This document shows, one piece after another, positions 3,796 to 23,852 of a stretch of DNA of 24,123 bases. The first letter of the stretch is position 1; every line of letters starts with the position of its first letter. The notes beneath the pieces were generated by a model. That model ran no database searches, was not told the DNA's origin, and was given only the letters and a program-made list of their open reading frames with translations. The stretch is from a virus: the IMG/VR virus record IMGVR_UViG_3300046509_000016, positions 1-24,123 of that record. One strand, given 5' to 3'. Made by a program: the position numbers and the translations under genes.

Positions 3796-3800
3796 GGGAA

Positions 3801-3831
3801 GAACTCAGAACTTAGAATTCAGAACACAGAA
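3801..3831 (+). repeat. Heptad leader element A1
   Basis: Four heptads (GAACTCA, GAACTTA, GAATTCA, GAACACA) are followed by GAA. The final A of the element is the A of the ATG that starts the small terminase gene. It lies 5 bases after the preceding stop and belongs to the six-member A family. Confidence 0.93.
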
Positions 3832-6140: not shown

Positions 6141-8359
6141 AGCTGCCGGCTTGGGCTGGGAAGATATTCACCGCGGAGACTCAGAGGGCGCAGAGTGGGC
6201 CGGAACTGGCGGAGATGGGTGCTACCGGGACTCCGATCTTTGGCGGGTTCCTTCGCGATGTCGGTGAGTACAACTCTGCGTTCTCGGGCGGTCCGTTCTC
6301 CGCTTATTCCACCTATGAGCAGATGCGGCGCGGGGATGCTCAGGTGGCGGCCACGCTGGCTGCGATCAAGCTGCCGATTCTTTCGGCGGGGTGGGCTGTT
6401 GCCGCGCCGGAGAATGCGACTCCGATCGAGCAGGAAGCGACCGACTTTGCTCGGAGCTGCTTGCTCGAGGAGCTCGACTTCGATGCCATCGTGCGCAATG
6501 CGCTGCTGATGCTCGATTTCGGGTGCTCGGCGCATGAGGACGTTTGGTATGTGGACGGCAATCGCGTGCGGCTGCGCAAGCTCGCCGCGCGCATGCCTTT
6601 GACTTTTTACCGGTGGATCTGCAAGCCGGGGTCGGACGAGCTGGCGGCGATCCAACAGCTTGGGTATCGCGGCGAACAATATGCGCAGGTCGAGGTCCCG
6701 ATCGAGAAGCTGGCTCTGTTCACGTATCAGCAAGAGGGCGCGAACTACGCCGGCATGTCGCTGCTGCGCCCGATGTACCAGCACTGGTACATCAAGAGCA
6801 ACCTCTACAAGGTGGACGCCATCGCGATCGAGCGAAATGGCATGGGCGTGCCGTGGATCCAGATGGGCCCCGACGCGAAGAAGGAAGATCGGACGGCCGC
6901 TAACGACTGGCTGCAGAAGCTGACGGTGCATGAGAAGGCGTCGATTCTGCTGCCTCCGGGTTGGACGTTCGGGTTGAAGGGCGTCGAGGGATCGACGCGC
7001 GATCCGAAGGAAACGATCGCGCACCACAATTTGCAAATTTCGATGGCCGGCCTGGCGATGTTCATGAACCTCGGCCAAACGCAGAGCGGATCCCGGAGCC
7101 TGGGGGAATCGCTGGGCGACTTCTTTGCAATGAGCGTGCAGGCGACGGCGGCACAGATCGCCCGCGTGATTTCGTTGACGACTCTCAAGCGGCTGATCGA
7201 TTACAACTTCGCCGGCATCGGAAATTATCCGAAGGTGGTTCCGACTGAGATTCTCAGCGTTAAGTTCTCGGATCTGGTGGCGGCTTTGAAGGATTTGGCG
7301 GCGGCGAACGTGGTGCAGCCGGATGACGATCTGGAAGCGTGGCTGCGGAAAAAGATGGGCGCGCCGGAGGCGGGGGAACCGAGGGTCAGGCCGCAGGTGC
7401 AGCCGGCCGTTCCCCCGCCGGATGTCACGAAAGACGGAACTCAGAACGCAGAACTCGGAACTCAGAAGGCTGAAGACGAGATAACCCCACGCGAAGGGTC
7501 AGGGGGCGAGCGGCCTGGTGCACCAGGTCGTAAAGTGCCCGCTCACTTGGCCGCAAGCGAGACAACTCCCTCCGGAGATCAGTTGCAGCTCCGGAGGGAA
7601 CCTCGCGGCATGGAGAAATGCCTGGCGTTGGCCGAGATCATCGGCGCTCTGGACAAGGGGCGGGATGAGGTGGCCGCCGCGCTTCGCTCGGCTCGGAGCC
7701 GGGTGCAGGCGGAGATCGTTAACAAGCTGGTGAATGCTCCGGTGGCATCGCTGCATCGGGTGTCACTCGCCGGCGATGAGAAGCTGACGGCGGCGATCGA
7801 GCAGATTCTGGCGGGGCTGCAAGAATTTGGCGCGCAGCAGGTGGCGGACGAGCGGGGCCGACAGCAGGCGGGCCAGGCGCCGTCGGACGCCGCGCTAATA
7901 CGTGCCGCCGTGAAGAAGCCTCGGCGCGATCCTCTTGGAGTCTACGCGGACGGCGTGGTGGGGGAGTTCACTAACTCTCTCACCAGCCGGGCCGCTAACG
8001 TGGCTCTCGATTGGATGCGGCGGCCGGGCGATCTCACCAAGGGCGAGATCATTCGCAAGGTCGAGGAAGAACTCGACGGACAAAGCGACAAGTGGATCGA
8101 TGGCGCGGCTTCGAAGGGCGCGAACGAAGCGTTCGCCGATGGGCGCGCGGCCGGGTACGAGGAGTACTCCTACGAGATCGGGGCGGTGCAGTACTCGGCT
8201 TTGCTGGACTTCAATACTTGCGGGAATTGCGAGGCGGCGGATGGGGCGGAGGGCGCGACGCCCGACGACGTCCCGGACGTGCCGAATCCAGATTGCGACG
8301 GCGGCGACAAGTGCCGTTGCGTGCATGTGTACATCTTCAGCGACGAGGTGAGGAAGTGA
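6137..8359 (+). CDS. Portal protein (DUF935, Mu gp29 type) fused to an F-like minor head protein
   Basis: The product has 740 residues, much longer than a normal DUF935 portal. Residues about 27-420 are portal: YEQMRRGDAQVAATLAAIKLPILSAGW, later ALLMLDFGCSAHEDVW, IERNGMGVPW and GSRSLGES. The portal is the dodecameric gate for DNA. Residues about 490-740 form an F-like head morphogenesis domain ending in TCGNCEAADG, then CDGGDKCRCVH, a cysteine pattern typical of Mu F-like proteins. The proline-rich linker (about 418-490) contains heptad element A2 and an 11-bp inverted repeat. The GTG at 6137 overlaps the previous stop (GTGA). An ATG at 6215 downstream of element B1 is an alternative start, which would put B1 in the leader. 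An in-frame ATG at 7610 could start a free F-like protein. Confidence 0.85.
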   Translation: MKLPAWAGKIFTAETQRAQSGPELAEMGATGTPIFGGFLRDVGEYNSAFSGGPFSAYSTYEQMRRGDAQVAATLAAIKLPILSAGWAVAAPENATPIEQEATDFARSCLLEELDFDAIVRNALLMLDFGCSAHEDVWYVDGNRVRLRKLAARMPLTFYRWICKPGSDELAAIQQLGYRGEQYAQVEVPIEKLALFTYQQEGANYAGMSLLRPMYQHWYIKSNLYKVDAIAIERNGMGVPWIQMGPDAKKEDRTAANDWLQKLTVHEKASILLPPGWTFGLKGVEGSTRDPKETIAHHNLQISMAGLAMFMNLGQTQSGSRSLGESLGDFFAMSVQATAAQIARVISLTTLKRLIDYNFAGIGNYPKVVPTEILSVKFSDLVAALKDLAAANVVQPDDDLEAWLRKKMGAPEAGEPRVRPQVQPAVPPPDVTKDGTQNAELGTQKAEDEITPREGSGGERPGAPGRKVPAHLAASETTPSGDQLQLRREPRGMEKCLALAEIIGALDKGRDEVAAALRSARSRVQAEIVNKLVNAPVASLHRVSLAGDEKLTAAIEQILAGLQEFGAQQVADERGRQQAGQAPSDAALIRAAVKKPRRDPLGVYADGVVGEFTNSLTSRAANVALDWMRRPGDLTKGEIIRKVEEELDGQSDKWIDGAASKGANEAFADGRAAGYEEYSYEIGAVQYSALLDFNTCGNCEAADGAEGATPDDVPDVPNPDCDGGDKCRCVHVYIFSDEVRK
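6167..6195 (+). repeat. 29-nt octad element B1
   Basis: TTCAC plus the three octads CGCGGAGA, CTCAGAGG and GCGCAGAG. If the portal starts at 6137 it is translated as FTAETQRAQ; if the portal starts at 6215 it is an untranslated leader. Related to B2-B4. Confidence 0.88.
7437..7467 (+). repeat. Heptad element A2, inside the portal/F fusion
   Basis: Four heptads (GAACTCA, GAACGCA, GAACTCG, GAACTCA) are followed by GAA. It is translated in frame as GTQNAELGTQKAE in the linker between the portal and F-like domains. It is the only A element clearly internal to a coding region. Confidence 0.92.
7514..7527. repeat. 14-bp perfect palindrome in the fusion linker
   Basis: CCTGGTGCACCAGG is its own reverse complement. 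It lies between element A2 and the inverted repeat at 7567-7599. A protein-binding site or a relic of an intergenic region is possible; chance is not excluded at this length in GC-rich DNA. Confidence 0.55.
7567..7599 (+). repeat. 11-bp inverted repeat (hairpin) with a GGAGGG arm
   Basis: TCCCTCCGGAG (7567-7577) and CTCCGGAGGGA (7589-7599) are perfect reverse complements around an 11-base loop. The 3' arm contains GGAGGG, 12 bases before the in-frame ATG at 7610, so the hairpin could hide a ribosome-binding site for an internal F-like product. There is no T tract, so it is not a standard terminator. Confidence 0.75.
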
Positions 8360-9480
8360 CGGGGAAGAACACAGAACTCAGAACACAGAACTCAGAAGGA
8401 GGCTTGCCTCGGTTTGTGATTCTTCTTTCGGCGCCGGGGGAGGCTGGCGGGCTGGTGCGGATTGCTTTGGCGAAGATCGGGACCTGGTGGAAGGGGAAGC
8501 AGAAGATCCGGATCACACGCGAGATGCTGGGCCAGGTGGTAGCGAATTTTCGGAAGCGGGCGAACGGCGAAGTGCCGATCGACTATGACCACGGCATCGA
8601 GTTCGCGGCGGGGAGCGGCGCGGCCGTTCCAGCCGCGGGGTGGATCAAGTCGATCGAGGACACGCCGGACGAGCACGGAATTCTTTGGGCGATGGCGGAA
8701 TGGACCGAGAAGGCGGCCGCCCACATTCTCGCCCGCGAGTACAAGTATTTTTCACCGGTGATCGATCCGAGCACGCGCGACAAAAAAACAGGCGAGCAGC
8801 AGGGCTGGACCCTGACAAGTGCCGCGCTCACGAACATCCCGGTGTTAGAGGATCTGCCGGCCATCGCACTGAGCGAGGGCGGGTGGAGCGAGATCGACCG
8901 CGACGGCGGCGATGAGGAGGAGACGACGGTGATCACAAAACTGATCATGGCGGATCGCGCCGCCGGCACGGTGCGCGCGGTGATGGAGGACGGGAAGGAA
9001 GTCACGCTGGCGGTGGAGGGGTTGACCCCCGAGCCGAAAGTGATGCGCCTTGCCGAGGTGAAACGCGGCGCGGATGGTCGGTTCGACTTCGCGTCGCTGG
9101 CAGAACAGCCGGTCGACACGCTGATCGCATGCGAGGTGATCCAGGCGATGAACGTGCAGGCCGAACTGGACGCGGCGGTGAAAGACGGCAAGATCACGCC
9201 GGCGCAGCGGCCGTCGATGGAGAAGTTGGCGCTGAGCGATCTCGCGGCATTCCGGGAGTTCGTGAAGGCGCAGAAACCGCAGCTCGATCTCAGCGAGCGC
9301 GGGATCGGCGGGAACGGCGGCGAGGGCGGCGACCTGAAGGCGGTTGACACGCAGCTCGACCAGCTCGCGCGGGAGCGAGCGAAGACCGATACGAAACTGT
9401 CGTACGGCCAGGCGATGAAGGTGGTGCTCGCGGAACGTCCGGAGCTGGCCAAGCGGCGCGCGGCCTTGATGCGCGATTAG
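8356..9480 (+). CDS. Head maturation protease with scaffold-like tail, Mu GpI type
   Basis: The product has 374 residues if the GTG at 8356 is used; it overlaps the portal stop (GTGA). The core has the signature of phage I-like proteases: VPIDYDHG (about 73-80), AAGWIKSIED, WTEKAAAHILAREYKYFSPVID and LTSAALTNIPVLEDLPAIAL (about 152-171). The histidine of DYDH and the serine of SAALTN are the likely catalytic residues. It would cleave scaffold and capsid precursors in the prohead. The C-terminal third is charged and helical, as expected for a fused scaffold. Element A3 is translated as NTELRTQNSE at the N-terminus. A GTG at 8416 after A3's GGAGG is a less well spaced alternative start. Confidence 0.84.
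   Translation: MTGKNTELRTQNSEGGLPRFVILLSAPGEAGGLVRIALAKIGTWWKGKQKIRITREMLGQVVANFRKRANGEVPIDYDHGIEFAAGSGAAVPAAGWIKSIEDTPDEHGILWAMAEWTEKAAAHILAREYKYFSPVIDPSTRDKKTGEQQGWTLTSAALTNIPVLEDLPAIALSEGGWSEIDRDGGDEEETTVITKLIMADRAAGTVRAVMEDGKEVTLAVEGLTPEPKVMRLAEVKRGADGRFDFASLAEQPVDTLIACEVIQAMNVQAELDAAVKDGKITPAQRPSMEKLALSDLAAFREFVKAQKPQLDLSERGIGGNGGEGGDLKAVDTQLDQLARERAKTDTKLSYGQAMKVVLAERPELAKRRAALMRD
8367..8397 (+). repeat. Heptad element A3 (runs into GGAGG)
   Basis: GAACACA, GAACTCA, GAACACA and GAACTCA are followed by GAA and then GGAGG (to 8402). It lies 8 bases after the portal stop, at the very start of the protease gene. It is the cleanest copy of the family. Confidence 0.95.
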
Positions 9481-9526
9481 CAAGCGCGCGGCGAGAGACC
9501 AGAAAAGGAGATCGAGGAAAAAAACA

Positions 9527-9934
9527 ATGGGGAACATCAGAACCTACAAAATCACGGATGCCGCGGGCGTGCTGATCTATCGGGCTGTGGTGCAGGGCAC
9601 GAACGCCGGCGAAGTGGCGAAGCCGGGGGCGGCGAACGCCGGGAAGTTCATCGGGATCACACAGGAAGCGCAGGCGACTCAGAACAAGAGCGTGCGCGTG
9701 CAGGAATTCGGCCGGACCTTCGCGGTGGCGGCCGGGGTGATCGCGGTGGGGGACGCGGTGAACATCGCGGACACGGCCGGGAAGTTGCAGTCGTGCCAGA
9801 CGGGATACGTGGCGACGCCGGGAACAGGGGCGTTGGTGTACTGCTTGGGGTTCGCGCGTACGGCGGCGGGCGCGGACGCGGACATTTTCGAAGTGGAGCT
9901 GCAGCCGCATCTGGTGAAGACAGCGGCTAGCTAA
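9527..9934 (+). CDS. Capsid decoration / head-stabilising protein (DUF2190-like)
   Basis: The product has 135 residues. The ATG at 9527 is preceded by AAAAGGAG and GAGG. The sequence is a compact beta-rich, Gly/Ala/Val-rich protein: VVQGTNAGEVAKPGAANAGKFIGITQEAQ, then VQEFGRTFAVAAGVIAVGDAVNIADTAGKL. This pattern is typical of small decoration proteins found between protease and capsid genes in Mu-like and related phages. It would form knobs or trimers on the capsid surface and stabilise it. A strong hairpin (9959-9992) separates it from the capsid gene, fitting separate control of two highly expressed structural genes. Confidence 0.78.
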   Translation: MGNIRTYKITDAAGVLIYRAVVQGTNAGEVAKPGAANAGKFIGITQEAQATQNKSVRVQEFGRTFAVAAGVIAVGDAVNIADTAGKLQSCQTGYVATPGTGALVYCLGFARTAAGADADIFEVELQPHLVKTAAS

Positions 9935-9958
9935 GCTTCCGGTTTTTCCGCTTGACGG

Positions 9959-9992
9959 GCTGGCGCGCGGGCCTGGAACACCGCGCGCCAGC
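9959..9992 (+). promoter_or_regulatory. Strong hairpin between decoration and capsid genes
   Basis: GCTGGCGCGCGG (9959-9970) pairs perfectly with CCGCGCGCCAGC (9981-9992) around a 10-base loop. There is no following T run, so intrinsic termination is unlikely to be efficient. RNA processing, mRNA stabilisation or partial attenuation between two structural genes is more likely. The surrounding 140-base gap is the longest in the window. Confidence 0.75.
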
Positions 9993-10073
9993 GGTGCAAG
10001 ACGCGGTGGGACCAGGATACCGGCGGGGCGGACCGACGGTTACCGCGGCACGTAGCGATTGGGGGAAAGAAAC

Positions 10074-11021
10074 GTGGAAGGCACAATTCACATTGACACG
10101 GCGCTGACAAACGTCAGCATCGGGTATTCGAACGGGGACTTCATCGCGGACCAGGTCGCGCCCGTGGTCCCAGTGAACTTCAAGAGCGACAAGTATTACA
10201 TCTACGGCAAAGAGCGTTTCCGGACGCGCGACGATCGGCGGACCGCGGGCGCCGAGGCGCGGAAGAGCCGTTTCTCATTGTCCAACGATAGCTACGGCTG
10301 CGAAGGGCACGCGCTGCTCGACGAGCTGCCGCGCGAAGACCAGAAGAACGCGGATCCGGCGATGGATCTGATGATCGACACCACCGAGCAACTGACCGAG
10401 GAGATGAAGCTGAACAAGGAATCGGCGCTGGTGGCCCTGCTGGTGGCTGGGATGACCAGCGCTTCGGTGGCGGCGCAGACGTCCACGAAGTGGAACAGCA
10501 ACTCGAACAATCCGGTGAACCTGATCATGGCGCAGTTGGCCATTGCACAGGCGCGGACCGGCAAGCGGCCGAACCGGATGGCGATTTCGCAACCGGTGTG
10601 GGACGCGATCTCGGTGAACACGACGGTGACCGGGAGAATCACCGGGGCCGCGAACTTGCAGGATTCGCGAGTGACGGTCGACCAGTTCGCGAACCTGCTG
10701 GGGCTGGAAGGCATCGACATCGGGTCGGCGATGTACGACACGGCGAATGAGGGACAGGCGGCTTCGCTCGACTACGTTTGGGGCGACTACGCGCTGGCCT
10801 ACTACCGGCCCCGCGTGATCGGGCGCAAGATGCTGTCTTTGTGCGCTCAGTTCCTGTGGAGCGGCGCCGGCCAGGCGGTGGGCGGGGAGAACGTCGGCGG
10901 GCAGTTCGTGCGGCGGTGGTTCGAGGACCGGCGCATCATCGACGTGGTCGAAGTCAACGAGTACTACGACCTGAAGCTGATCACGAAGGACGCCGGCTGT
11001 CTGTTCTCGGATTGCCTGTAG
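10074..11021 (+). CDS. Major capsid protein
   Basis: The product has 315 residues. The GTG at 10074 is chosen because GGGGGAAAG lies at correct spacing; a TTG at 10059 would place this site inside the gene. Features typical of HK97-fold capsids of this gene order are an N-terminal arm (ALTNVSIGYSNGDFIADQVAPVVPV), a charged E-loop-like region (KYYIYGKERFRTRDDRRT) and a long central helix (AMDLMIDTTEQLTEEMKLNKE). Later come PNRMAISQPVWDAI and a C-terminal RRWFEDRRIIDVVEVNEYYD. The position after protease and decoration genes supports the call. It would assemble the icosahedral shell after scaffold cleavage. Confidence 0.85.
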   Translation: MEGTIHIDTALTNVSIGYSNGDFIADQVAPVVPVNFKSDKYYIYGKERFRTRDDRRTAGAEARKSRFSLSNDSYGCEGHALLDELPREDQKNADPAMDLMIDTTEQLTEEMKLNKESALVALLVAGMTSASVAAQTSTKWNSNSNNPVNLIMAQLAIAQARTGKRPNRMAISQPVWDAISVNTTVTGRITGAANLQDSRVTVDQFANLLGLEGIDIGSAMYDTANEGQAASLDYVWGDYALAYYRPRVIGRKMLSLCAQFLWSGAGQAVGGENVGGQFVRRWFEDRRIIDVVEVNEYYDLKLITKDAGCLFSDCL

Positions 11022-11025
11022 CGCG

Positions 11026-11781
11026 ATGGCGGCTCCTGTACTTATTTCGATTTCGCCGGCCCTCGGCCCTCCGGGGACGGTGATCACCTGCTTGGGCTCC
11101 GGCTTCGATGCCGGGGCCCAGGTGGGGTGTCCGGACCTGGTGGCGACGACGTTTGTCTCAGCTACGGAGCTGCGGGCGACGATCCCGGCCGACATGGCTG
11201 GGGCGGCGGGTGGGTCGGCGATCGCGAGCGTGTTCGTTCAGAACGAGGATGGGTCGCGGTCCGAGATTGTGCCGTTCGCCGTGGCGTTCCCTTATCCGGC
11301 TTCGACACTGCAATCGTTCACTTGCATCGATTCAGTGTGCGGCGAGATACCGGGTTTCCGGCGCAATGGGCGGATTCAGGACGCGACGGTCGAGGGGTGG
11401 ATGCGGTCGATCGCGCAGCTCATTGCGGGGGCCATGCTGAGGCGCGGGTTGCCTCTGGATTCGACGCTATGGCAGCAGCCGGACTCTGTGACGGCCGTGC
11501 CGACCCCGGCGGGCATATTGGAGCTGATCAACCGGCTGGGGGCGGCGGCTCGGCTGGCATCGGCCATGGCGAGCGAGTTCACTTCGGGCGAGTGGGGTTT
11601 GGCGAAGAACCTCCAGCGGGATTTTGAGCGCGAGTTCAACTCTCTCTGCGGCGGCGGGTACGACAAGGTGTTTCTGCCTTCGGCGGCTACCGTGGAAGCG
11701 GGGCAACAGTTTGCCGGCGGGGACATTGTGAACAGTTGCGGGGACGCGGAGAATGCGTTCTCGAAGGGGCGGGTGTTCTAG
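11026..11781 (+). CDS. IPT/TIG-domain protein fused to a putative head-tail adaptor
   Basis: The product has 251 residues and starts 4 bases after the capsid stop. Residues about 1-90 form one IPT/TIG immunoglobulin-like domain: ISISPALGPPGTVITCLGSGFDAGAQVGC, then TELRATIPADMAG and SVFVQNEDGSRSEIVPFAV. Residues about 110-251 are helical (GWMRSIAQLIAGAMLRRGLPLD, then AARLASAMASEFTSGEWGLAKNLQRDFEREFNSL). The place directly after the capsid gene is where head-completion or connector proteins are encoded. The Ig-like part may decorate the virion surface and bind cells or glycans. The adaptor role of the second half rests on position and helical character only. Confidence 0.6.
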   Translation: MAAPVLISISPALGPPGTVITCLGSGFDAGAQVGCPDLVATTFVSATELRATIPADMAGAAGGSAIASVFVQNEDGSRSEIVPFAVAFPYPASTLQSFTCIDSVCGEIPGFRRNGRIQDATVEGWMRSIAQLIAGAMLRRGLPLDSTLWQQPDSVTAVPTPAGILELINRLGAAARLASAMASEFTSGEWGLAKNLQRDFEREFNSLCGGGYDKVFLPSAATVEAGQQFAGGDIVNSCGDAENAFSKGRVF

Positions 11782-11785
11782 GTGA

Positions 11786-11816
11786 GAACACAGAAATCAG
11801 AACTCAGAACACAGAA
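11786..11816 (+). repeat. Heptad element A4
   Basis: GAACACA, GAAATCA, GAACTCA and GAACACA are followed by GAA, then GACGGAGGG. It starts 5 bases after a stop codon, and the GGAGGG is the ribosome-binding site of the GTG at 11829. Confidence 0.94.
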
Positions 11817-11828
11817 GACGGAGGGTTT

Positions 11829-12284
11829 GTGAAAGTTGCAACATTGTTGCTTTTGGCGGCCGGTCTGATGTTCGGCCAGGCCGCAAATGTGGCGGCTGTG
11901 GGCGTGTCCGTGAACCCTGGCGGGTCTCCGCAGATTGCAGGCACCGGGCTCTGGGCCAGGCTCATCAGCGGCGAAGGCACCTATGCGTTTACAGTCGTCG
12001 ATGCGCTTCCGGCGTCGATCAAACCGTTCACCGTCACGACTCAGGTCTCCGCAGGCGTGGCGCAGCGGATCTTCACCATCAACGGCGTGGACATTATGGT
12101 CCCCACGGCCGCCGGAGCCTCGTGGAGCGGTACAAACGTTGGGTGGTCCTGGTCGAGTGGCGGCATGGCGGCGATCAAGTGGAAGCAGGCCCGCATCCTG
12201 CCCAATGTCCGGTTCTTGAAAAGCTCAGTCTCGGGCGCGGGGTACCAGGTTATTGCGGGTGTCTTGTTCGGCTGGGGGTGGTAG
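11829..12284 (+). CDS. Exported protein of unknown function (acidobacterial style)
   Basis: The product has 151 residues. The GTG at 11829 follows GGAGGG by three bases and starts a clear signal peptide (MKVATLLLLAAGLMFGQAANV, reading GTG as Met). The mature part looks beta-rich: VGVSVNPGGSPQIAGTGLWARLISGEGTYAFTVVDALP, then VTTQVSAGVAQRIFTINGVDIMVPTAAG, ending GYQVIAGVLFGWGW. A terminal aromatic and alternating hydrophobic residues would fit an outer-membrane or surface beta protein. The FGQ cleavage-region motif is common in acidobacterial exported proteins in my experience. It sits between head-completion genes, where exported proteins are not expected. Function unknown. Confidence 0.65.
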   Translation: MKVATLLLLAAGLMFGQAANVAAVGVSVNPGGSPQIAGTGLWARLISGEGTYAFTVVDALPASIKPFTVTTQVSAGVAQRIFTINGVDIMVPTAAGASWSGTNVGWSWSSGGMAAIKWKQARILPNVRFLKSSVSGAGYQVIAGVLFGWGW

Positions 12285-12288
12285 CGCG

Positions 12289-12555
12289 GTGACAGCCGAG
12301 AAACAACTCGTCGAAGCGGTCGACAGGTACGCTCTAGAGCGGCGCCTGACCGTGGACATGGGGCCGGGGGCGTACCTGGAATTCCTACAGGCCAACGGGC
12401 AGGCGTACCGGATTCCGCTCTGCCACCTGATGAGCGCCCCAGATATCCTGGGGCAGACTTCGGTGACGCGGCCGTGCCCGGTCGTGAGGCAGAGCACGGG
12501 CCTGGCGGATCCCGTGTGGCCGCATCCCGCGCGTTGGGACAAGCCGGATGACTAA
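12289..12555 (+). CDS. Small protein of unknown function in the head-completion region
   Basis: The product has 88 residues, with a GTG at 12289 five bases after the preceding stop. It is acidic at the N-terminus (EKQLVEAVDRYALERRLTVDMGPGAYLEFLQANGQAYRIPLCHLMSAPDI) with an extended Pro-rich C-terminus (DPVWPHPARWDKPDD). No membrane segment or signal peptide is visible. Its place between capsid and G-like genes suggests a virion-assembly accessory protein. The family was not recognised. Confidence 0.55.
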   Translation: MTAEKQLVEAVDRYALERRLTVDMGPGAYLEFLQANGQAYRIPLCHLMSAPDILGQTSVTRPCPVVRQSTGLADPVWPHPARWDKPDD

Positions 12556-12573
12556 CACAGTGAGGAGGACGTA

Positions 12574-12855
12574 ATGCTGGATGGATTGAAACGGAAGTTG
12601 GCGGCGGGTGTGATCGGGTCGTTTGTGAAGAAGATGGCTACTTCTCCGGACACACAGACGACGGCGCTCGGGTTCGCGGCGGCGGCGATCATCGCCAAGC
12701 AGGTGGACTTCAACGCGGTGCTCTCTTGCACCGTGCAGAGCTGCAACTACGACCAGGTGGGGACTTTACTCCTGGCGATTGTGGTGGGGCTGCTTGGGTG
12801 GCGCGCGAACAAGCAAAAGACGACGGCCGGCGAAATTGTGAAGTCACTTTTCTAA
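12574..12855 (+). CDS. Small membrane protein, holin candidate
   Basis: The product has 93 residues. A strong GAGGAGG site lies 6 bases before the ATG. A basic N-terminus (DGLKRKLAAGVIGSFVKKM) precedes two hydrophobic stretches (ALGFAAAAIIAKQ, about 31-43; VGTLLLAIVVGLLGW, about 62-76) and a basic C-terminal end. The central loop has two cysteines (CTVQSC). Two short membrane segments with charged ends and fewer than 100 residues fit a class II holin. No lysis enzyme is adjacent, so a minor virion protein remains possible. Confidence 0.55.
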   Translation: MLDGLKRKLAAGVIGSFVKKMATSPDTQTTALGFAAAAIIAKQVDFNAVLSCTVQSCNYDQVGTLLLAIVVGLLGWRANKQKTTAGEIVKSLF

Positions 12856-12859
12856 TAGC

Positions 12860-13426
12860 ATGTTTCGGTTTCGGTTGGAGATTGCCGGGGAGGTTCAGAT
12901 GGACCGGGGGATCGCCCGGTTCTCGGACGGGGTTACGGATTACCGGCCGATCTGGCCTTCGATCGAGGACGATTTCTATGCCCAGGTGAAGGATCAGTTC
13001 AAGACCGAGGGCGCTGCAGGCGGGGAGAAGTGGCAGGAACTGTCTCCGGAGTATGCGGGGTGGAAGGCTGTGAACTTCCCAGGCAAGCCGATCCTGCAGC
13101 GGTCCGGCGATCTGATGAAGTCTCTGACCAGCGGGAGCGATCCGAACGCTATCAAGCGCGAGGAGCGGAAGACTTTGACCCTGGGGTCCTCGGTTCCTTA
13201 TGCGATTTATCACCAGTCTCCGGCGCCGCGGAAAGTGCTGCCTCGGCGGCCGGAGATTATGCTCACCGAACCGTTCAAGCGGGGGGTGATGCGGATCATG
13301 CAGACGTATCTGGTTCAGATGGCTACGGCGAGCGGGTTCAGGCACGGGCTGACTCCTCTGGAGACGTCGTCGATCATGGGTCGGATGATGCGGGGGAAGG
13401 GCGGGCCGTCTTGGGCAAAACTTTGA
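12860..13426 (+). CDS. Virion morphogenesis / tail completion protein, Mu GpG type
   Basis: The product has 188 residues. The key family pattern is present: FKTEGAAGGEKWQELSPEYAGWK, PGKPILQRSGDLMKSLTSG, then LGSSVPYAIYHQ and LPRRPEIMLTE. Mu GpG-like proteins act late in joining heads and tails. The start at 12860 has no Shine-Dalgarno sequence but gives the usual N-terminus (MFRFRLEIAGEVQMDRGIARFSDG) and would be coupled to the upstream gene. An in-frame ATG at 12899 has GGGGAGG at good spacing and is an alternative that would drop 13 residues. Confidence 0.82.
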   Translation: MFRFRLEIAGEVQMDRGIARFSDGVTDYRPIWPSIEDDFYAQVKDQFKTEGAAGGEKWQELSPEYAGWKAVNFPGKPILQRSGDLMKSLTSGSDPNAIKREERKTLTLGSSVPYAIYHQSPAPRKVLPRRPEIMLTEPFKRGVMRIMQTYLVQMATASGFRHGLTPLETSSIMGRMMRGKGGPSWAKL

Positions 13427-13428
13427 GA

Positions 13429-13457
13429 TTCACCGCAGAGACGCTGAGGGCGCAGAG
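13429..13457 (+). repeat. 29-nt octad element B2
   Basis: TTCAC plus CGCAGAGA, CGCTGAGG and GCGCAGAG. The element ends at the base before the ATG at 13458, and its own GAGGG, seven bases before the ATG, serves as the ribosome-binding site. This is the clearest case of an element acting as a leader. Confidence 0.93.
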
Positions 13458-13727
13458 ATGAGCGAGATGGCAAGCATGGCGTGGGGCGTGGTCCTGGTGT
13501 TCGGCACCATTTTTTGGTTCCACCCGTTTGTTTTGCGATTTCTGGCGGCTAGGATATGGGCTCGGGCGCATGCTCTCGAGGTTGGGCGGGCAGCGTACCG
13601 CCGGATGCTGGCGGAGATCGAGGGGCGAGAAGCCCGCGGGTTTCAGGAGCATGCTCAGGCTGGCGCCGATCTGAGCGCGGCCGCTGAGGCGCACTACCAG
13701 TGCGCGCGCGAGGAGTTCCATGGCTGA
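13458..13727 (+). CDS. Small membrane protein of unknown function
   Basis: The product has 89 residues. One strongly hydrophobic N-terminal segment (MAWGVVLVFGTIFWFHPFVLRFLAA, about 7-31) is followed by a charged, Ala/Glu/Arg-rich helix (RMLAEIEGREARGFQEHAQAGADLSAAAEAH). This layout resembles membrane-anchored coiled-coil proteins such as small spanin-like or holin-associated proteins, but no conserved motif was recognised. Its ribosome-binding site is supplied by element B2. It overlaps the next gene by 8 bases. Confidence 0.6.
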   Translation: MSEMASMAWGVVLVFGTIFWFHPFVLRFLAARIWARAHALEVGRAAYRRMLAEIEGREARGFQEHAQAGADLSAAAEAHYQCAREEFHG

Positions 13728-14169
13728 GTTCGTCAAACCCGTCATCGATGCCGTGATTGCGACTTTGGAACAATACACTCCGGCGATGGTGCCGGTGGGG
13801 TATGAGCCGTTCGTCGATTTCGGGCGGCAGTTCACGGGCGTGGTGCAGAACTGGCCTTCACTGTTTGTGATGCCGGGGCGGACGGTGTTCGATCCGGACA
13901 TGCAGGGGTGCATCCGGCAGGGGCATCAGATTCAAATCAAGCTCGCGGTGACCGGGGCGACTCCGGACGAGGTGACTGATGCGGCGATGGTCTATGTTCG
14001 CGCGGTTCACCTGGCGATCGCGGCGGCGGATGCGGCTGGGGACTTCTCGGCGTACCAGCGGGTGTTCGTGGCGGCGCACGATTACGGGCCGCTGTACGAG
14101 CGGGGCGGCGGGATCGCGCGGCTACCGGAGATGGAGCTGATCGTGGAAGCGGTGGAGGCGGAGGGGTGA
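13720..14169 (+). CDS. Tail terminator / neck protein candidate (Mu gp37-like position)
   Basis: The product has 149 residues, with GAGGAG five bases before the ATG at 13720. It is a compact alpha/beta protein: VIDAVIATLEQYTPAMVPVGYEPF, NWPSLFVMPGRTVFDP, a basic strand QIQIKLAVTGATPDEVTDAAMVYVRAVHLAI, and LPEMELIVEAVEAEG. The strand-helix-strand layout and the position between the G-like protein and the tail tube gene match tail terminator proteins, which cap the tube and set the head-tail joint. Assignment rests mainly on position. Confidence 0.62.
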   Translation: MAEFVKPVIDAVIATLEQYTPAMVPVGYEPFVDFGRQFTGVVQNWPSLFVMPGRTVFDPDMQGCIRQGHQIQIKLAVTGATPDEVTDAAMVYVRAVHLAIAAADAAGDFSAYQRVFVAAHDYGPLYERGGGIARLPEMELIVEAVEAEG

Positions 14170-14303
14170 GGCGCTACCGCGTGACATTGCCGGTGGAGAT
14201 CGGCGGGGTGAAGTACGGGTTCGGCGACGTGGTCGCGCTCGATGTCGAGACGGCGGTTGAGTTCGGGTTTGCGTTGATCGCAGCAGAAGAAGAGGAGAAA
14301 TAA
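14166..14303 (+). CDS. 45-residue protein between tail terminator and tail tube genes
   Basis: The GTG at 14166 overlaps the previous stop (GTGA), and the gene ends one base before the tail tube ATG. The product begins MRRYRVTLPVEIGGVKYGFGD and continues to a Glu-rich end (AAEEEEK). The pattern (short beta strands RYRVTLPVEIGGVKYGFGDVVALD, then a helix ETAVEFGFALI) matches the small conserved proteins often found just ahead of the sheath or tube gene in Mu-like phages. It is well supported by perfect packing between neighbours. Function unknown. Confidence 0.72.
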   Translation: MRRYRVTLPVEIGGVKYGFGDVVALDVETAVEFGFALIAAEEEEK

Positions 14304-15509
14304 ATGGCTGGCTCAGCTAAGGATATTCAGGTCACTCAGGTCCAGCAGGGGCCGGGCGACCTTTGGGTTATTGGGACGCCTCCGGTGGACGCTACGCCTC
14401 GTTTGACGCTGGCGAGCGATGGGACTCCGGACGCGACGACGCACGGGACTTGCGTGCATCTTGGGGCGTTGCAGGATTGCACCACGACGATCAAGCCGCA
14501 GGTCAACATGATCTCGCTGGATCAGCTTGACGCTCCGTTCGACTTGTACCTGGGCAACCTGGACGCTCAGCTTTCGGCGACGTTTGCGCAAACGGAGATG
14601 AGCAAGCTCGCCCGGGCTTTGGGCGTGGGGACGTACGCGACGGCGAGCGGGTACAAACAGGTGACATTCGGCGGCACTCTAGTGGTTCCGACGTACTGTC
14701 TGGCGGCGATTTCGCCGACGCGCGCGGCAGCGCTGAAGCATGTTGTCAGCGTGCTGTTCAGCGCGGCACCGGCGGGCGGGTTCCAGGTGATCTTCGGGCG
14801 CGGCGCGCCGAGCCTGTACAAGGCGAAGTGGATCGGCTTGGGGGACACGGCCCGGGCGGCCGGGAAGCAGGTGGGCAACCTATACGTCACGCTCACGAAC
14901 GCCAGCGGCGGGACGCCGACGGCGAACGCATTCTCGTTGAGCGAGTTTCATCAGGGGCCGGGCGATCTGTGGATCCTGCCCGATGGGCCCACCAACGCCG
15001 AGGAGCGGGTGACGCTGGACGCGACCACGCTCACTCCGGATGCTACGGCGCACGTTGGTGCGATTCACCTGGGCGCGACGGCCGGGCCGATCACGCTCTC
15101 GGTTGTGCCGAAGATCAGCATGATCAAAATCGACCAGACCGACTCTCCGATAGGGGTGTTTGTCGAATCGATCGAGGCGTCGATCGAGTGCGAGCTGTCG
15201 CAGATCGGCGTGGACAAGCTGCAGTATGCGCTGGGCGTGGGGAGCTACACGGCGGATGCCGCGTACAAGCAGTTGACGTTCGGCGGGGCGGCGAATCCGA
15301 TCCCGTTCTGTGTGGCGGGGATCGCTCCGAAGCGGTCCGACGCGACCAAGGCTTTCGTGGCTTGCCTGTACCGGGTGATGAGCACCGAGGGCGTCGAGAT
15401 CAAGATGTCGCGGAAATCGCCCATGACTTACAAGGTGAAGTTCACGGCTCTGTCCGATCCCACACGCACTGCCGGGAAGCAGATGGGGATCGTTCACGAG
15501 ACGATCTGA
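14304..15509 (+). CDS. Major tail (tube) protein with a duplicated domain
   Basis: The product has 401 residues, about twice the size of a single-domain tube protein. AAGAGGAG precedes the ATG at 14304. The two halves are clearly homologous. QGPGDLW occurs near residues 15-21 and again near 217-223; DATTH...VHLGA matches DATAHVGAIHLGA; ALGVGTY...GYKQVTFGG matches ALGVGSY...AYKQLTFGG; and AGKQVGN matches AGKQMG. The offset between halves is about 202-204 residues. No sheath gene is present, so this is read as the tube of a non-contractile tail. In T5 a duplicated tube protein forms trimeric rings that imitate hexamers, and the same is predicted here. Confidence 0.82.
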   Translation: MAGSAKDIQVTQVQQGPGDLWVIGTPPVDATPRLTLASDGTPDATTHGTCVHLGALQDCTTTIKPQVNMISLDQLDAPFDLYLGNLDAQLSATFAQTEMSKLARALGVGTYATASGYKQVTFGGTLVVPTYCLAAISPTRAAALKHVVSVLFSAAPAGGFQVIFGRGAPSLYKAKWIGLGDTARAAGKQVGNLYVTLTNASGGTPTANAFSLSEFHQGPGDLWILPDGPTNAEERVTLDATTLTPDATAHVGAIHLGATAGPITLSVVPKISMIKIDQTDSPIGVFVESIEASIECELSQIGVDKLQYALGVGSYTADAAYKQLTFGGAANPIPFCVAGIAPKRSDATKAFVACLYRVMSTEGVEIKMSRKSPMTYKVKFTALSDPTRTAGKQMGIVHETI

Positions 15510-15538
15510 TTCACCGCTGAGACGCTGAGGACACGGAG
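15510..15538 (+). repeat. 29-nt octad element B3
   Basis: TTCAC plus CGCTGAGA, CGCTGAGG and ACACGGAG. It begins directly after the tail tube stop (TGA, 15507-15509) and runs into GAGGG, giving GGAGGAGGG three bases before the ATG at 15547. Confidence 0.92.
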
Positions 15539-15546
15539 GAGGGCTT

Positions 15547-15990
15547 ATGAGCAGAGCTTCTGAATGGCGGGATCGGGGGGCGGCGGTGGCCGTCTCCGAG
15601 GCGGTGGAGTTGGTGCTTCCTAGCGGGGCTACTATCCTTGCCCGGCGTCCGGACGCGATGCAGTTGGCGAGCTGGAACAAGCTGCCTATGAGTTTGGCGG
15701 CGGCCGCCAGCGGCGAGGGCGGGGCGGCTTCCGTCACCACTGAGCAGGCGGGGGAGTTGGCGGGGTTTCTTCGGGACCTTTTGGTTTACTGCTGTGTGGC
15801 GCCTCGGATCTCGCTGACTCCTGGCGAGGACGAAATGCATCCTCGGGACGTTCCCCAGGCGGATTGGACTTTCATTATCAACTGGGCGCTGCGGGTGGAG
15901 GAGGCCCGCTCGCTCACGGGGTTTCGTGGCGGGCGAGCAGATGCTGGCGATAGTGGCGACGGCGAAGGCGTTCGGGCAACGGCCTTCTGA
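15547..15990 (+). CDS. Tail assembly chaperone, upstream frame (G-like)
   Basis: The product has 147 residues. GGAGGAGGG supplied by element B3 precedes the ATG. The position between tube and tape measure genes and the content fit a tail assembly chaperone: SEAVELVLPSGATILARRPDAMQLASWNKLP, then GFLRDLLVYCCVAPRISLTP and DWTFIINWALRVEEARSLTGF. The C-terminal 20 residues (GRADAGDSGDGEGVRATAF) do not look like folded protein, while the overlapping downstream frame does. This suggests ribosomal frameshifting near 15925-15940 to give a longer G-T type product. Chaperones of this kind coat the tape measure during tube assembly. Confidence 0.75.
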   Translation: MSRASEWRDRGAAVAVSEAVELVLPSGATILARRPDAMQLASWNKLPMSLAAAASGEGGAASVTTEQAGELAGFLRDLLVYCCVAPRISLTPGEDEMHPRDVPQADWTFIINWALRVEEARSLTGFRGGRADAGDSGDGEGVRATAF

Positions 15991-16108
15991 GTTGGTGGGG
16001 ATTGAGGATCCTGTGGTGGCTTTGAACTTCGACATGGCGGCGGTGGTGAGGCTGAACGAAGAGCTTCACCATGGAGACGCTGAGGGCACGGAGAAGGTCT
16101 ACCTCTAA
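15926..16108 (+). CDS. Tail assembly chaperone, downstream frame (T-like)
   Basis: The frame has 60 residues from the GTG at 15926 and is open from 15818. It carries a pattern I associate with second-frame tail chaperone segments: AFGQRPSELVGIEDPVVALNFDMAAVVRLNEEL. It may be reached by a +1 or -2 shift from the upstream frame, or started at the GTG at 15926 or the ATG at 15941, both with poor ribosome-binding sites. The C-terminus (HHGDAEGTEKVYL) is the translation of element B4. The stop overlaps the tape measure start (TAATG). Confidence 0.68.
   Translation: MAGEQMLAIVATAKAFGQRPSELVGIEDPVVALNFDMAAVVRLNEELHHGDAEGTEKVYL
16065..16093 (+). repeat. 29-nt octad element B4
   Basis: TTCAC plus CATGGAGA, CGCTGAGG and GCACGGAG. 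It lies in the end of the T-like frame, 14 bases before the tape measure ATG, and its end forms GGAGAAGG. It is the only B element lying at the 3' end of a coding frame. Confidence 0.9.
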
Positions 16109-18501
16109 TGTCTCTCGATTCCACCGCCAACCTTCTGTTCACAATCGGGGCGGACAGCTCCGATGCTGAGGGCAACATCAAGAAGTTCCGCGGCATCTTG
16201 TCCAAAGATCTGGATGGGATGAAGGCGGAGTTCGCGGACTGGTCGAAGAAGGTCTTTGGCGACATGAGCACGGCCGGCGGCTTGTTCGCCGGGGTGGCGG
16301 CGGGCGTGGCGGCGGCGGGGGTGGCTATTGGCGCGGCGCTGGTTGGCGCGGCAGACAAGGCAGCGAAGTACGCGCTGGAGATCGACGAAGCCAGCGACCG
16401 GACGGGGATCGGGGCCGAGGACATGTCTCGGCTGCGGTACGCGGCGGAATCGACGGGTACCAGCTACAGCAGTTTGTTGACCGGTTTGACGGCCTTTTCT
16501 ACGGCGATTGATGCGGCGCGCGATCCGACCAGCAAGCAGGCCGATCTATTCCATCGGCTGGGAATTTCCCAGAAGGAAATCGAAAACGGTTCACGGGATG
16601 CGCTTCCGCTGTTGCTCCGGGTCTCCGACGCCTTCCGCAATGACATGACTCAGGTGGAGCGCGCGTCTGTTTCGCGGCAACTGTTCAGCCGGGGCGGCGC
16701 TGATCTGATTGACATGCTGCAGCGCGGATCGGGGGCACTCAAGGGCTTCGGCGCCGAGGCGGAGCGGCTCGGCCTGGTGATCGGCGAGGACAGCGTCGAG
16801 GCGGCTAAGCGGTACCGGGCGGAGATCGCCTACCTCAAGGCTGGGCTGGAGGGGATAGCGGTCGTCATCGGCACTACGGTGCTGCCGGTGCTGAACAATC
16901 TGTTTGTGGGCGGCGAGGCTGTCTTTGGCGGACTCAAGGCTATGATCGCCGGGGGATTCGGGCCGGCGGCGGGGGCAAATTTCGCGGCGGGGCTCGTGGC
17001 GGGTGGCCAGGAAGCGATGCTCCGGTTGGATGCGGCCGCTAAGGCTTCGATGGCCAGCAGGATGGGGCTGGAGGCTCCGGGCGGGAACAATACCGCACAG
17101 ACCAAACAGGATTTTGAGGGACTGGGCAGCATTCTGGACCAGGTGCGCGGGCAGATGGCCGGCCTGGCCGGGGAAGAAGCGAAGATCGCCTTCGAGTCCA
17201 ACCGCATGCAGGACGAGGTTGTCAAGGCGACGATGAAGCTCTCGACCTTGGCGATCGAGGGGAAGATCACCGGGACTACTTTCGCGCGGGAGGCGGCGGA
17301 TCTGGCGCAGTTGCCGGCGGCGATCGCGGCGCTGGCTACGGCGCAGATTGCCGAGCTCGAGAAGAAGCGCGCCGAGGCCGCGGTCAAGGCCACCGAGGAG
17401 CTGCAATCGAAGTTGTCCGGCTTGGAAGAACAGACGTATGCGAACCGGGCGGCGGCGGTCACTCGGGAGATCGCGGATTTGCGGCAGAAACTAACCACCG
17501 AGAAGACGCTCACGGAGGACAATCAGCGGCTGCTGGTGGCGATCGAGAAGGCGGGCTTGCAGCAGATCGAGAAGGAACGGGCGGCGGCGTTCATAAAGGA
17601 ACTGGTGGAGCTGCAGGCGCAGCTTGCGTCCATCCTGACGTCGCAGATGACGCATGCGATGCGTCTGCGGTTTCAGTACGACCAGGAGCAGGAACGGTTC
17701 AGCGCGGCCGAGGAGGAGAAGGTGGTCGCGGTCGCGAAGGGCGAGGCCGAGCAGGACGCGATCCGGCAACAGTTCGCGCTGAACCGGAAGGCGTCTCTGG
17801 TGGCGTATCTCGGAGACCTGAATGCTCTGCACAACTCGACCGGGTGGCGGGGGGTGTTCGGCGCAGAGTTCGCCGACGCGATCCGGGGGAATGAAGAGCT
17901 GCTTCAGGAGTGGGCCACTAGCGCGAACCAGAGCCTGCTAATGGTGCGGGTGGCGGGGGAGGCTGTCACCGAGTCGCTGCAACGGGGGTTCGGCAACTTC
18001 TCGAAGGCCATGGGGGCGAACATTGCCCAGGCGATCGTGTACAAGACGTCGATCGGGGAGGCGATGCGGGCGGCGGCGGCGAGCGCGCTGGAGTCCATTG
18101 CGGCCGAGTCGATTGTGCAGGCGATCTATGCCACGGCTCTGGGCTTCCTGCGCCTGGCGCATCACGATTACCCAGGGGCGGCTTCAGCGTTCACGGCGGC
18201 GGCGATCTTTGGGAGCGTGGGGGCGGTGGCGGCGGTGGCTGGGCGGGCTATTGCGCCCAAACAGGCGGGTGCTGGGGCGTCGGGGACGGACTCCGGGTCT
18301 ACGGCCTCCGGCGGGGCGGCGGACTCGTCTAGCGGCTCTGGAAGCTCTGGCGGGCCACGCGTGCAGGTCATTGTCAACGGGCACATCGTGGGCGCTTCGG
18401 GGATCGAGGAACTGACCGACATGATCAACGAGGCGGTGCAGGGGCGGGATGTGCGGCTGGTGGCTACGCAGGTGCGGCAGGAGACTCGGGCAATCCGATG
18501 A
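16108..18501 (+). CDS. Tail tape measure protein
   Basis: The product has 797 residues. Its length sets tail length, and by the usual rule of about 1.5 angstrom per residue the tail would be roughly 120 nm. It shows the expected order. A short N-terminal domain is followed by a hydrophobic segment (GLFAGVAAGVAAAGVAIGAALVGAADKA, about 53-80) that may enter the host membrane. A conserved-looking region follows (DEASDRTGIGAEDMSRLRYAAESTG), then hydrophobic stretches near 250-300 and long coiled-coil regions (about 340-560). A Ser/Gly-rich linker (about 718-752) precedes a small C-terminal domain (VQVIVNGHIVGASGIEELTDMINEAVQ). The start is coupled to the chaperone stop (TAATG). Confidence 0.88.
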   Translation: MSLDSTANLLFTIGADSSDAEGNIKKFRGILSKDLDGMKAEFADWSKKVFGDMSTAGGLFAGVAAGVAAAGVAIGAALVGAADKAAKYALEIDEASDRTGIGAEDMSRLRYAAESTGTSYSSLLTGLTAFSTAIDAARDPTSKQADLFHRLGISQKEIENGSRDALPLLLRVSDAFRNDMTQVERASVSRQLFSRGGADLIDMLQRGSGALKGFGAEAERLGLVIGEDSVEAAKRYRAEIAYLKAGLEGIAVVIGTTVLPVLNNLFVGGEAVFGGLKAMIAGGFGPAAGANFAAGLVAGGQEAMLRLDAAAKASMASRMGLEAPGGNNTAQTKQDFEGLGSILDQVRGQMAGLAGEEAKIAFESNRMQDEVVKATMKLSTLAIEGKITGTTFAREAADLAQLPAAIAALATAQIAELEKKRAEAAVKATEELQSKLSGLEEQTYANRAAAVTREIADLRQKLTTEKTLTEDNQRLLVAIEKAGLQQIEKERAAAFIKELVELQAQLASILTSQMTHAMRLRFQYDQEQERFSAAEEEKVVAVAKGEAEQDAIRQQFALNRKASLVAYLGDLNALHNSTGWRGVFGAEFADAIRGNEELLQEWATSANQSLLMVRVAGEAVTESLQRGFGNFSKAMGANIAQAIVYKTSIGEAMRAAAASALESIAAESIVQAIYATALGFLRLAHHDYPGAASAFTAAAIFGSVGAVAAVAGRAIAPKQAGAGASGTDSGSTASGGAADSSSGSGSSGGPRVQVIVNGHIVGASGIEELTDMINEAVQGRDVRLVATQVRQETRAIR

Positions 18502-18530
18502 TTTCACGCAAAGGCGCAAAGGCGCAAAGG
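18502..18530 (+). repeat. 29-nt octad element C
   Basis: TTTCA plus three identical octads CGCAAAGG. It begins directly after the tape measure stop codon (TGA, 18499-18501), and its last AAAGG is the ribosome-binding site of the ATG at 18536. It has the same 5+24 layout as the B elements with a different octad. Confidence 0.92.
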
Positions 18531-19630: not shown

Positions 19631-20323
19631 ATGAAGAAAGTAACGATAAAGGTTGCCGCCGTTCTTGGCCTACTGGTGTGTGGTGTCACGGCGTCGTACT
19701 TTGCCACGGGACCGCACACATTGCGGTCCGTGTCGTTCCTCCCAGAGAACCCCAAAACCACGGCAGAGTATACTCTGGTTCAGACGATGACAAAGTCCGA
19801 CGAAGCTTCATCGTTCGGAACCAGGACCACGGCCGTTTCGGCCACAATGGGGAGATCGATAACCGCTTCCATTCGGGGTGACCAGATATCCACAAGGCAC
19901 ATCATCACCGCCGCCGACGACTCGTTTGTCGATCCGGCATCTAAGAGCGTTTTTCGGGGCATTCCCACCCAGCCACCTAACCCTATCGATGTTTGCCGGC
20001 GCACCAAGTGCGAGGTGCAAAAGGAGACCATTCTCGGATTCCGGGTGGTCAAGGGAAGCTACACCACAGACGTGGGGCACGGACAAACGCTATGGATGGC
20101 TCCGGCACTCAACTACGCCATTCTGCGCCAAGTTGCAACTCGGGATGGGAAGACGAATACCACCGAACCGGTCTCGATCAAGTTGGGACCGCCGGACCCG
20201 GCGCTGTTCGACGTGCCGGCGGACTATCGCACCATGGCTAATCGGAAGGAATTCGAGAAGGTCATGTTCGCGGCGCGCAGGGCGCCTGCTCATATGGCGG
20301 TTTCGGGGGTGCGGAAGAAGTGA
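19631..20323 (+). CDS. Exported protein resembling acidobacterial secreted proteins
   Basis: The product has 230 residues. The N-terminus (MKKVTIKVAAVLGLLVCGVT) is a signal peptide or a lipoprotein signal (LLVCG). The C-terminal half carries the pattern ETILGFRVVKGSYTTDVG, TLWMAPALNYAILRQV, then TEPVSIKLGPPDPALFDVPADYRTM. I associate this layout with secreted proteins of Acidobacteriota. Base composition looks lower in GC than in the virion genes, so the gene is probably host-derived cargo. The stop overlaps the methylase start (GTGA), so it is co-translated with it. Function unknown. Confidence 0.66.
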   Translation: MKKVTIKVAAVLGLLVCGVTASYFATGPHTLRSVSFLPENPKTTAEYTLVQTMTKSDEASSFGTRTTAVSATMGRSITASIRGDQISTRHIITAADDSFVDPASKSVFRGIPTQPPNPIDVCRRTKCEVQKETILGFRVVKGSYTTDVGHGQTLWMAPALNYAILRQVATRDGKTNTTEPVSIKLGPPDPALFDVPADYRTMANRKEFEKVMFAARRAPAHMAVSGVRKK

Positions 20324-23109: not shown

Positions 23110-23343
23110 ATGGCAAAGAAAAGAACTCAGGACTCAGAACTCGGAACTCAGAAGGAAGAGTCTAACATGGTGGAAATGCCGGCGGCGGTTCCCACTTACA
23201 CGCTGCGGGCGGACCGCAAGAGCGACATGCTGGCGATGATCGCGGTTCTGCGGATGGGTCGGGAATTTGGGGTCGAGAACCTGGCCGAGTTGGAGGCCAC
23301 GGTTCGGGAGTTCGAACTGTACGAAGAGAAGTATCTGAGGTAG
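23110..23343 (+). CDS. Small protein of unknown function in the distal tail region
   Basis: The product has 77 residues from the ATG at 23110. The alternative ATG at 23167 gives 58 residues (MVEMPAAVPTYTLRADRKSD...) and has the GGAAGAG from element A5 upstream. With the first start, A5 is translated as TQDSELGTQKEE, which looks unlike a natural N-terminus, so the second start may be the true one. The body is helical (DMLAMIAVLRMGREFGVENLAELEATVREFELYEEKYL). Confidence 0.6.
   Translation: MAKKRTQDSELGTQKEESNMVEMPAAVPTYTLRADRKSDMLAMIAVLRMGREFGVENLAELEATVREFELYEEKYLR
23123..23153 (+). repeat. Heptad element A5
   Basis: GAACTCA, GGACTCA, GAACTCG and GAACTCA are followed by GAA and then GGAAGAG. 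It lies just inside the ATG at 23110 and 14 bases before the ATG at 23167. Confidence 0.93.
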
Positions 23344-23815: not shown

Positions 23816-23821
23816 CAAGTG

Positions 23822-23852
23822 GAACTCAGAACACAGAACACAGAACTCAGAA
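23822..23852 (+). repeat. Heptad element A6
   Basis: GAACTCA, GAACACA, GAACACA and GAACTCA are followed by GAA and then TGAGGAAGGG. It starts 6 bases after the preceding stop, and the downstream GAGGAAGGG is the ribosome-binding site of the ATG at 23866. Confidence 0.95.

Follow-up and report, generated by a model that had tools for sequence, protein, structure and literature searches.

Octad and heptad repeats at the gene junctions of a phage genome as probable members of a widespread class of short polar repeats in bacteria

The virus record IMGVR_UViG_3300046509_000016 (24,123 bases; "the window" here means this whole stretch of DNA) encodes a Mu-like portal (Portal_Mu), a head protease, a major head protein, a terminase and a tape measure protein, and every called gene except one short call lies on its + strand. 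It holds five short repeat elements of 29 nucleotides (nt), termed octads here, and six heptad elements besides (Table 1). We suggest that these are probably members of a widespread and heterogeneous class of short polar repeats that sit at gene junctions and live mainly in bacterial chromosomes, and that the phage copies are of host type, dispersed and tolerated. The octads are real. They belong, as a variant, to a kind of element that is known but has been explained poorly, and part of the picture has already been published for GGGNATC and TAACTGA repeats.

When the window was scanned with the degenerate-base (IUPAC) pattern TTCACCGCNGAGRCGCNGAGRRCNCNGAG, allowing up to three mismatches, the TTCAC form of the octad was matched four times (at 6167, 13429, 15510 and 16065), with 0-2 mismatches and always on the + strand, and not once in 100 dinucleotide shuffles. 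The original prediction had described five sense-oriented elements of 29 nt, each built from a head and three octads. All of its coordinates were exact, and the proposed design holds for the element at 18502, which carries true CGCAAAGG octads. It does not hold for the four TTCAC elements, which consist of the head and three 7-nt CGCNGAG cores joined by unequal linkers, of 1 nt and then 2 nt (5+7+1+7+2+7 = 29). Octads exist with both lengths of the second linker: of 83 distinct viral copies picked by their first 20 nt only, 49 have 2 nt there and 21 have 1 nt. When 110 viral and 173 bacterial copies are aligned, conservation begins at base 1 and ends at base 29, and the flanks are at background except for a mild preference for A; the copies were picked by a 29-nt consensus scan, so that the inner columns are partly selected and the flanks are not.

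The heptad elements are made of CTCAGAA or CACAGAA cores and are linker-free. A loose theme common to them and to the octads can be drawn by eye, namely CNCRRAN cores with a linker of 0, 1 or 1-2 nt. Their length is not fixed, and the expectation that 29 nt would be kept was borne out for octads only, the heptad copy number varying between phages that are 99.4% identical. Among such viral contigs (L215, L219 and L221) arrays were seen to differ in length by 35 bp, or 5 units, and this difference is direct evidence of slippage. None of the phage units (CGCNGAG, CGCAAAG, CTCAGAA) contains a G-tract, and these forms, read in sense, have stop codons in no frame and no strong fold. In folding, the four TTCAC elements do not surpass shuffles (z +0.4 to +1.3) and the CGCAAAGG element folds weakly (z -2.0); since single elements have no stable fold, a covariance model would bring little gain for them. 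A scan of the window against Rfam gave zero matches above the gathering score.

Table 1. Octad and heptad elements of the window, with their make-up and surroundings.
Element	Positions	Strand	Make-up	Surroundings
Octad	6167..6195	+	TTCAC CGCGGAG A CTCAGAG GG CGCAGAG	In frame inside the portal N-terminus, translated FTAETQRAQS
Octad	13429..13457	+	TTCAC CGCAGAG A CGCTGAG GG CGCAGAG	2 nt past stop of 12860-13426; abuts ATG 13458
Octad	15510..15538	+	TTCAC CGCTGAG A CGCTGAG GA CACGGAG	0 nt past stop of 14304-15509; end makes GGAGG before ATG 15547
Octad	16065..16093	+	TTCAC CATGGAG A CGCTGAG GG CACGGAG	Within 3' end of frame 15926-16108, shortly before tape-measure ATG 16108
Octad, second form	18502..18530	+	TTTCA + 3x CGCAAAGG (perfect)	0 nt past tape-measure stop; 5 nt to ATG 18536
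Heptad	3800..3831	+		4 nt past stop 3795, extends into ATG 3831; no element at this junction in L079, where stop and start overlap as TGATG
Heptad	7436..7467	+		Within variable portal linker (GTQNAELGTQK); octad in the same linker of L079
Heptad	8366..8397	+		6 nt past portal stop 8359, then AGGAGG
Heptad	11785..11816	+		3 nt past stop 11781; at the same junction octad CCACAAAGACACGGAGGCACGAAGG in L079, none in L077
Heptad	23122..23153	+		13 nt past stop 23108; possibly translated in next frame
Heptad	23821..23852	+		5 nt past stop 23815

The position of the elements is anchored to the preceding stop codon and not to the next start. Three of the five octads in the window (13429, 15510 and 18502) begin 2, 0 and 0 nt past a stop codon and four of the heptads begin 3-6 nt past one; the remaining four elements (6167, 7436, 16065 and 23122) are in reading frames or farther beyond a stop, and a portal alignment places 6167 and 7436 in variable stretches of that protein. 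Of 44 sense elements in viral contigs, 31 are no more than 8 nt away from a stop codon, against a null median of 30 nt, an anchoring that is weaker when only unpaired viral elements are counted (P 0.02). Viral octads are mostly sense and directly past stops. From the phage alone, the sense orientation is inseparable from a common orientation on one genome strand, because all but one short call of its genes are on the + strand. All copies in the window are unpaired.

Comparison with related phages proved informative. Searches with the terminase led to the relatives L077-L080 (74-88% identity) and L297 (60%), and four of these five (L077, L078, L080 and L297) have no junction elements; L079 carries four or five of its own. 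Between 3795 and 3831 the window has a 35-nt stretch with a heptad where in L079 the two genes overlap; past the stop at 11781 the heptad of the window is answered by an octad in L079 and by nothing in L077, and in the portal linker again a heptad stands against an octad. From these empty or differently filled junctions it follows that the elements of the window are dispensable, recent and interchangeable between families. A clean contrast of a filled and an empty site was also found outside the lineage: in L008 a stop codon is separated from a Shine-Dalgarno sequence by an inverted pair of octads, about 130 bp long, which is absent from L069 (88-91% identity). Genus-mates of the array-rich Acidobacteria genome G074 yielded no empty site that stood up. 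No target-site duplication was seen at sites with empty relatives, the flanks of which are just 74-91% identical. More distant phage relatives were observed to hold other octad or heptad families at stop-start junctions (L298, 414-439; L300, 7090-7153), and in L230 (8588-8855) a heptad inverted pair encloses an octad inverted pair within one intergenic gap. No related phages were found by way of the major capsid protein, and an annotated phage collection gave two weak matches only, both without annotation.

The octad pattern was found in 74 viral stretches, and the identical 29-mer in 83 stretches of species-representative bacterial genomes from at least eight phyla, including Acidobacteria, Planctomycetota, Chloroflexi, deltaproteobacteria, Gammaproteobacteria, Nitrospirae, Elusimicrobia, Latescibacterota and others. 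Twelve of these genomes hold 31-228 near-matches each, where the backwards control gives 0-1. Annotated plasmids from Gemmatirosa, cyanobacteria, Bacteroides and Sphingomonas carry related forms. In Sphingomonas, according to the NCBI annotation, an octad begins 1 nt past the rarD stop and its inverted partner sits right at the end of the convergent gene. A deltaproteobacterium (G005; L184-L190) has octad pairs with inward-facing heads, the reverse of most genomes.

Of 149 Acidobacteria genomes, 29 have octads and 19 have heptads; 12 have both, an association with an odds ratio of 11.4 (P 7e-6; 11.2 after stratification by size) that ignores kinship between the genomes. One genome (G115) has 183 matches to the backwards control of the heptad pattern, which points to another heptad family being abundant there. 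The expectation that both types would be met in the same genomes was confirmed. The suggestion that the two are versions of one kind of element in a single phage was supported in part. It is right as to behaviour: octads and heptads share their sites, their orientation and their genomes, and replace one another at junctions of related phages. Common descent or a shared machinery would be conjecture. The restriction to one phage was too narrow for a feature that is bacterial and spans many phyla.

The polarity of the class was clearest in 759 kb of two array-rich Acidobacteria genomes, G074 and G040, with genes called by a simple purpose-written caller and regions picked for their elements, so that densities are not genome averages. 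These hold 227 noncoding arrays of period 7, against 0 in shuffles. The share of gaps with arrays is 35-37% between codirectional genes, 29-33% between convergent ones and 9-18% between divergent ones (35%, 33% and 9% in G074 alone), and the first array begins a median of 5 nt past the stop. About half of the occupied codirectional gaps in G074 hold unpaired arrays. Within each family one strand is found past stops and its complement ahead of starts; this rule is kept by 145 of 146 arrays of many families when the count is limited to arrays near only one gene end, with a few exceptions once arrays near two gene ends are included, and it is kept equally by single and paired arrays. The post-stop strand was defined from the same data, and the independent test is the pre-start arrays, of which 55 of 55 conform. 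Viral octads have the same polarity as the post-stop arms of bacterial pairs. In the phage, octads and heptads alike are sense and free of stops in every frame, a rule that does not fully coincide with that of the bacteria. Stop-free coding was considered as a general cause of polarity and rejected, as the main family of G074 has TGA in its post-stop strand.

A class of repeats at gene boundaries, with fixed polarity, is common in some genomes of many phyla. In this phage lineage its members are dispensable and differ between close relatives, and they lie between a stop codon and a ribosome-binding site or in loose protein linkers. Several versions appear to have been acquired by this phage recently. 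The copies have probably spread as preformed units of host type, with their copy number later altered by slippage, and probably persist because they lie at those few sites of a compact genome that tolerate 29-32 extra bases. Little harm to translation is to be expected from a sense strand that is stop-free in all frames and without a strong fold, and the element often supplies or borders the Shine-Dalgarno sequence of the next gene. Stop anchoring, the poor folding of single elements and the empty sites in relatives together speak for elements that are dispersed and tolerated, and against a signal that the phage needs.

Several observations weigh against this interpretation. The phage heptads, with CTCAGAA in sense, correspond to the strand that precedes starts in the pairs of G074 and not to the post-stop strand. 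The interiors of bacterial pairs have no common body, unlike a usual mobile element, even though the two pairs in L008 look similar inside. No enzyme, target-site duplication or transfer event was seen, and when 396 Acidobacteria genomes were searched with the terminase for a prophage that would reveal the host, the matches were weak only. The sense bias of single viral elements is also compatible with a role in translation.

Such a role would make the repeats binding sites in 5' leaders, for the ribosome, S1, Csp, a CsrA-like or another RNA-binding protein, that set the expression of the downstream gene. This has been proposed for the TAACTGA direct repeats of Beggiatoaceae, Cyanobacteria and Bacteroidetes, most of which lie right upstream of starts (MacGregor 2015, PMC4679880). 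Those repeats, in two to six heptads, resemble the present elements in being intergenic and oriented, in spanning distant phyla and in that their mechanism of mobility is not known, but their sequence is different, their author relates them to the start codon, their forward strand carries stops and they have no fixed head. Elements in the window do end 0-15 nt ahead of the next start, and their end often forms GGAG or AAGG. However, the unit here is another one and the anchor is the preceding stop, many elements lie between convergent genes with no start downstream (as at rarD of Sphingomonas), some are inside genes, and relatives do without them. We consider translational control unlikely as the explanation.

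Mobility of the kind known for repetitive extragenic palindromic (REP) sequences appears equally improbable. The head and repeat would here be the recognition tag of a Y1/HUH transposase of the REP-associated tyrosine transposase (RAYT) type, and the inverted pair a mobile unit like the REP doublets that form hairpins (REPINs). The elements share with REPs, bacterial interspersed mosaic elements (BIMEs) and REPINs a size of 20-40 nt, an extragenic position near gene ends and the occurrence of post-stop singlets and inverted pairs. Strong matches to Y1_Tnp (PF01797) also co-occur in the 149 genomes with octads (odds ratio 5; size-stratified 4.1) and with heptads (19; stratified 10.3), associations that do not control for shared ancestry of the genomes. 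At the loci themselves, however, 0 of 20 Y1 genes were flanked by inverted copies in the manner typical of RAYTs, and arrays were near about 2 of the 20, so that the lead to this transposase is statistical and finds no backing in linkage at the loci. REPs moreover are internally palindromic, carry a GTAG/CGTC-type tag and stand beside RAYT genes; single elements here lack the internal imperfect palindrome, and neither tag nor neighbouring RAYT gene was found. As regards other mobile forms, the 77 pair interiors compared in G074 and G040 are unrelated, such similarity as they have apparently coming from other nested repeats, with L008 a possible exception. The common body between terminal inverted repeats that marks a miniature inverted-repeat transposable element (MITE) is thus absent, and transposition as a unit with a shared body was rejected for these two genomes.

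It is very unlikely that RNA hairpins at gene ends, acting as terminators, mRNA stabilisers or RNase III sites, are the selected unit and single copies only their halves. The fold of inverted pairs is very strong (-53 and -60 kcal/mol, z -9.6 and -7.2), few elements lie between divergent genes, and partner arms have variants in common above the level of permuted partners, from which it follows that the arms arise together or convert each other. Against this, the unpaired state is that of all copies in the window and of about half the occupied codirectional gaps in G074, arm lengths barely correlate (r 0.17), the consensus unit differs between the arms in 30 of 98 pairs, and no consistent U-run was seen by eye.

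Degenerate intergenic heptameric arrays like those described here are known from cyanobacteria as short tandemly repeated repetitive (STRR) heptamers; these are not known to have a head or a fixed three-unit form. No description of headed octads was found in the open literature, which omits most subscription journals. A close parallel is with the heptameric GGGNATC and GGGGA(C/T)T repeats of Xanthomonas and Nostoc, which were studied as quadruplex formers (Rehm 2015, PMC4692102). Common to both are short tandem intergenic units, an identical polarity rule, inverted pairs, scarcity between divergent open reading frames and variation in copy number. The octads differ in their 5-nt head, their three units in 29 nt, their spread over many phyla and phages and the single state of the copies in the window, and they lack a quadruplex-capable unit. 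Because the octads have no G-tracts, quadruplexes are not the general cause of the polarity, which families such as AATTGAG also obey; as a general explanation they are refuted, and they could apply only to families with G-tracts. The reading that the elements are low-complexity or coding repetition arisen by chance in a GC-rich phage, for which nothing but the purine-rich composition speaks, is refuted by the empty shuffles in the window and in the two Acidobacteria alike and by the exact 29-mer shared across phyla.

Some further features of the window were observed. An adenine DNA methyltransferase (MethyltransfD12) is encoded at 20320-21261 in the late region, and a sequence of some 45 bases, GGTCAGTCAGAGCGGGAGGTACACGATCCAATGAAATTCACGCGCCTC, occurs twice, at 1365-1410 and 1733-1776, around two gene starts. 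Directly before the tape measure gene, the frames 15547-15990 and 15926-16108 overlap in a way that resembles a frameshifted pair of tail-assembly chaperones; the element at 16065 sits at the end of the second frame.

It is conceivable, if unlikely, that a single undescribed process common to many phyla writes polar tandem elements of many families at coding boundaries, without quadruplexes or palindromes, and that it also marks the phages of these bacteria. In some bacteria such elements, mostly without names, take a large share of the intergenic space, and the octads make it clear that the polarity rule of G-rich repeats needs no G-quadruplexes. Some phages have elements at junctions that are empty in others, so that nature itself provides a before-and-after comparison, and the elements could possibly serve as a fingerprint of the host for orphan phages.

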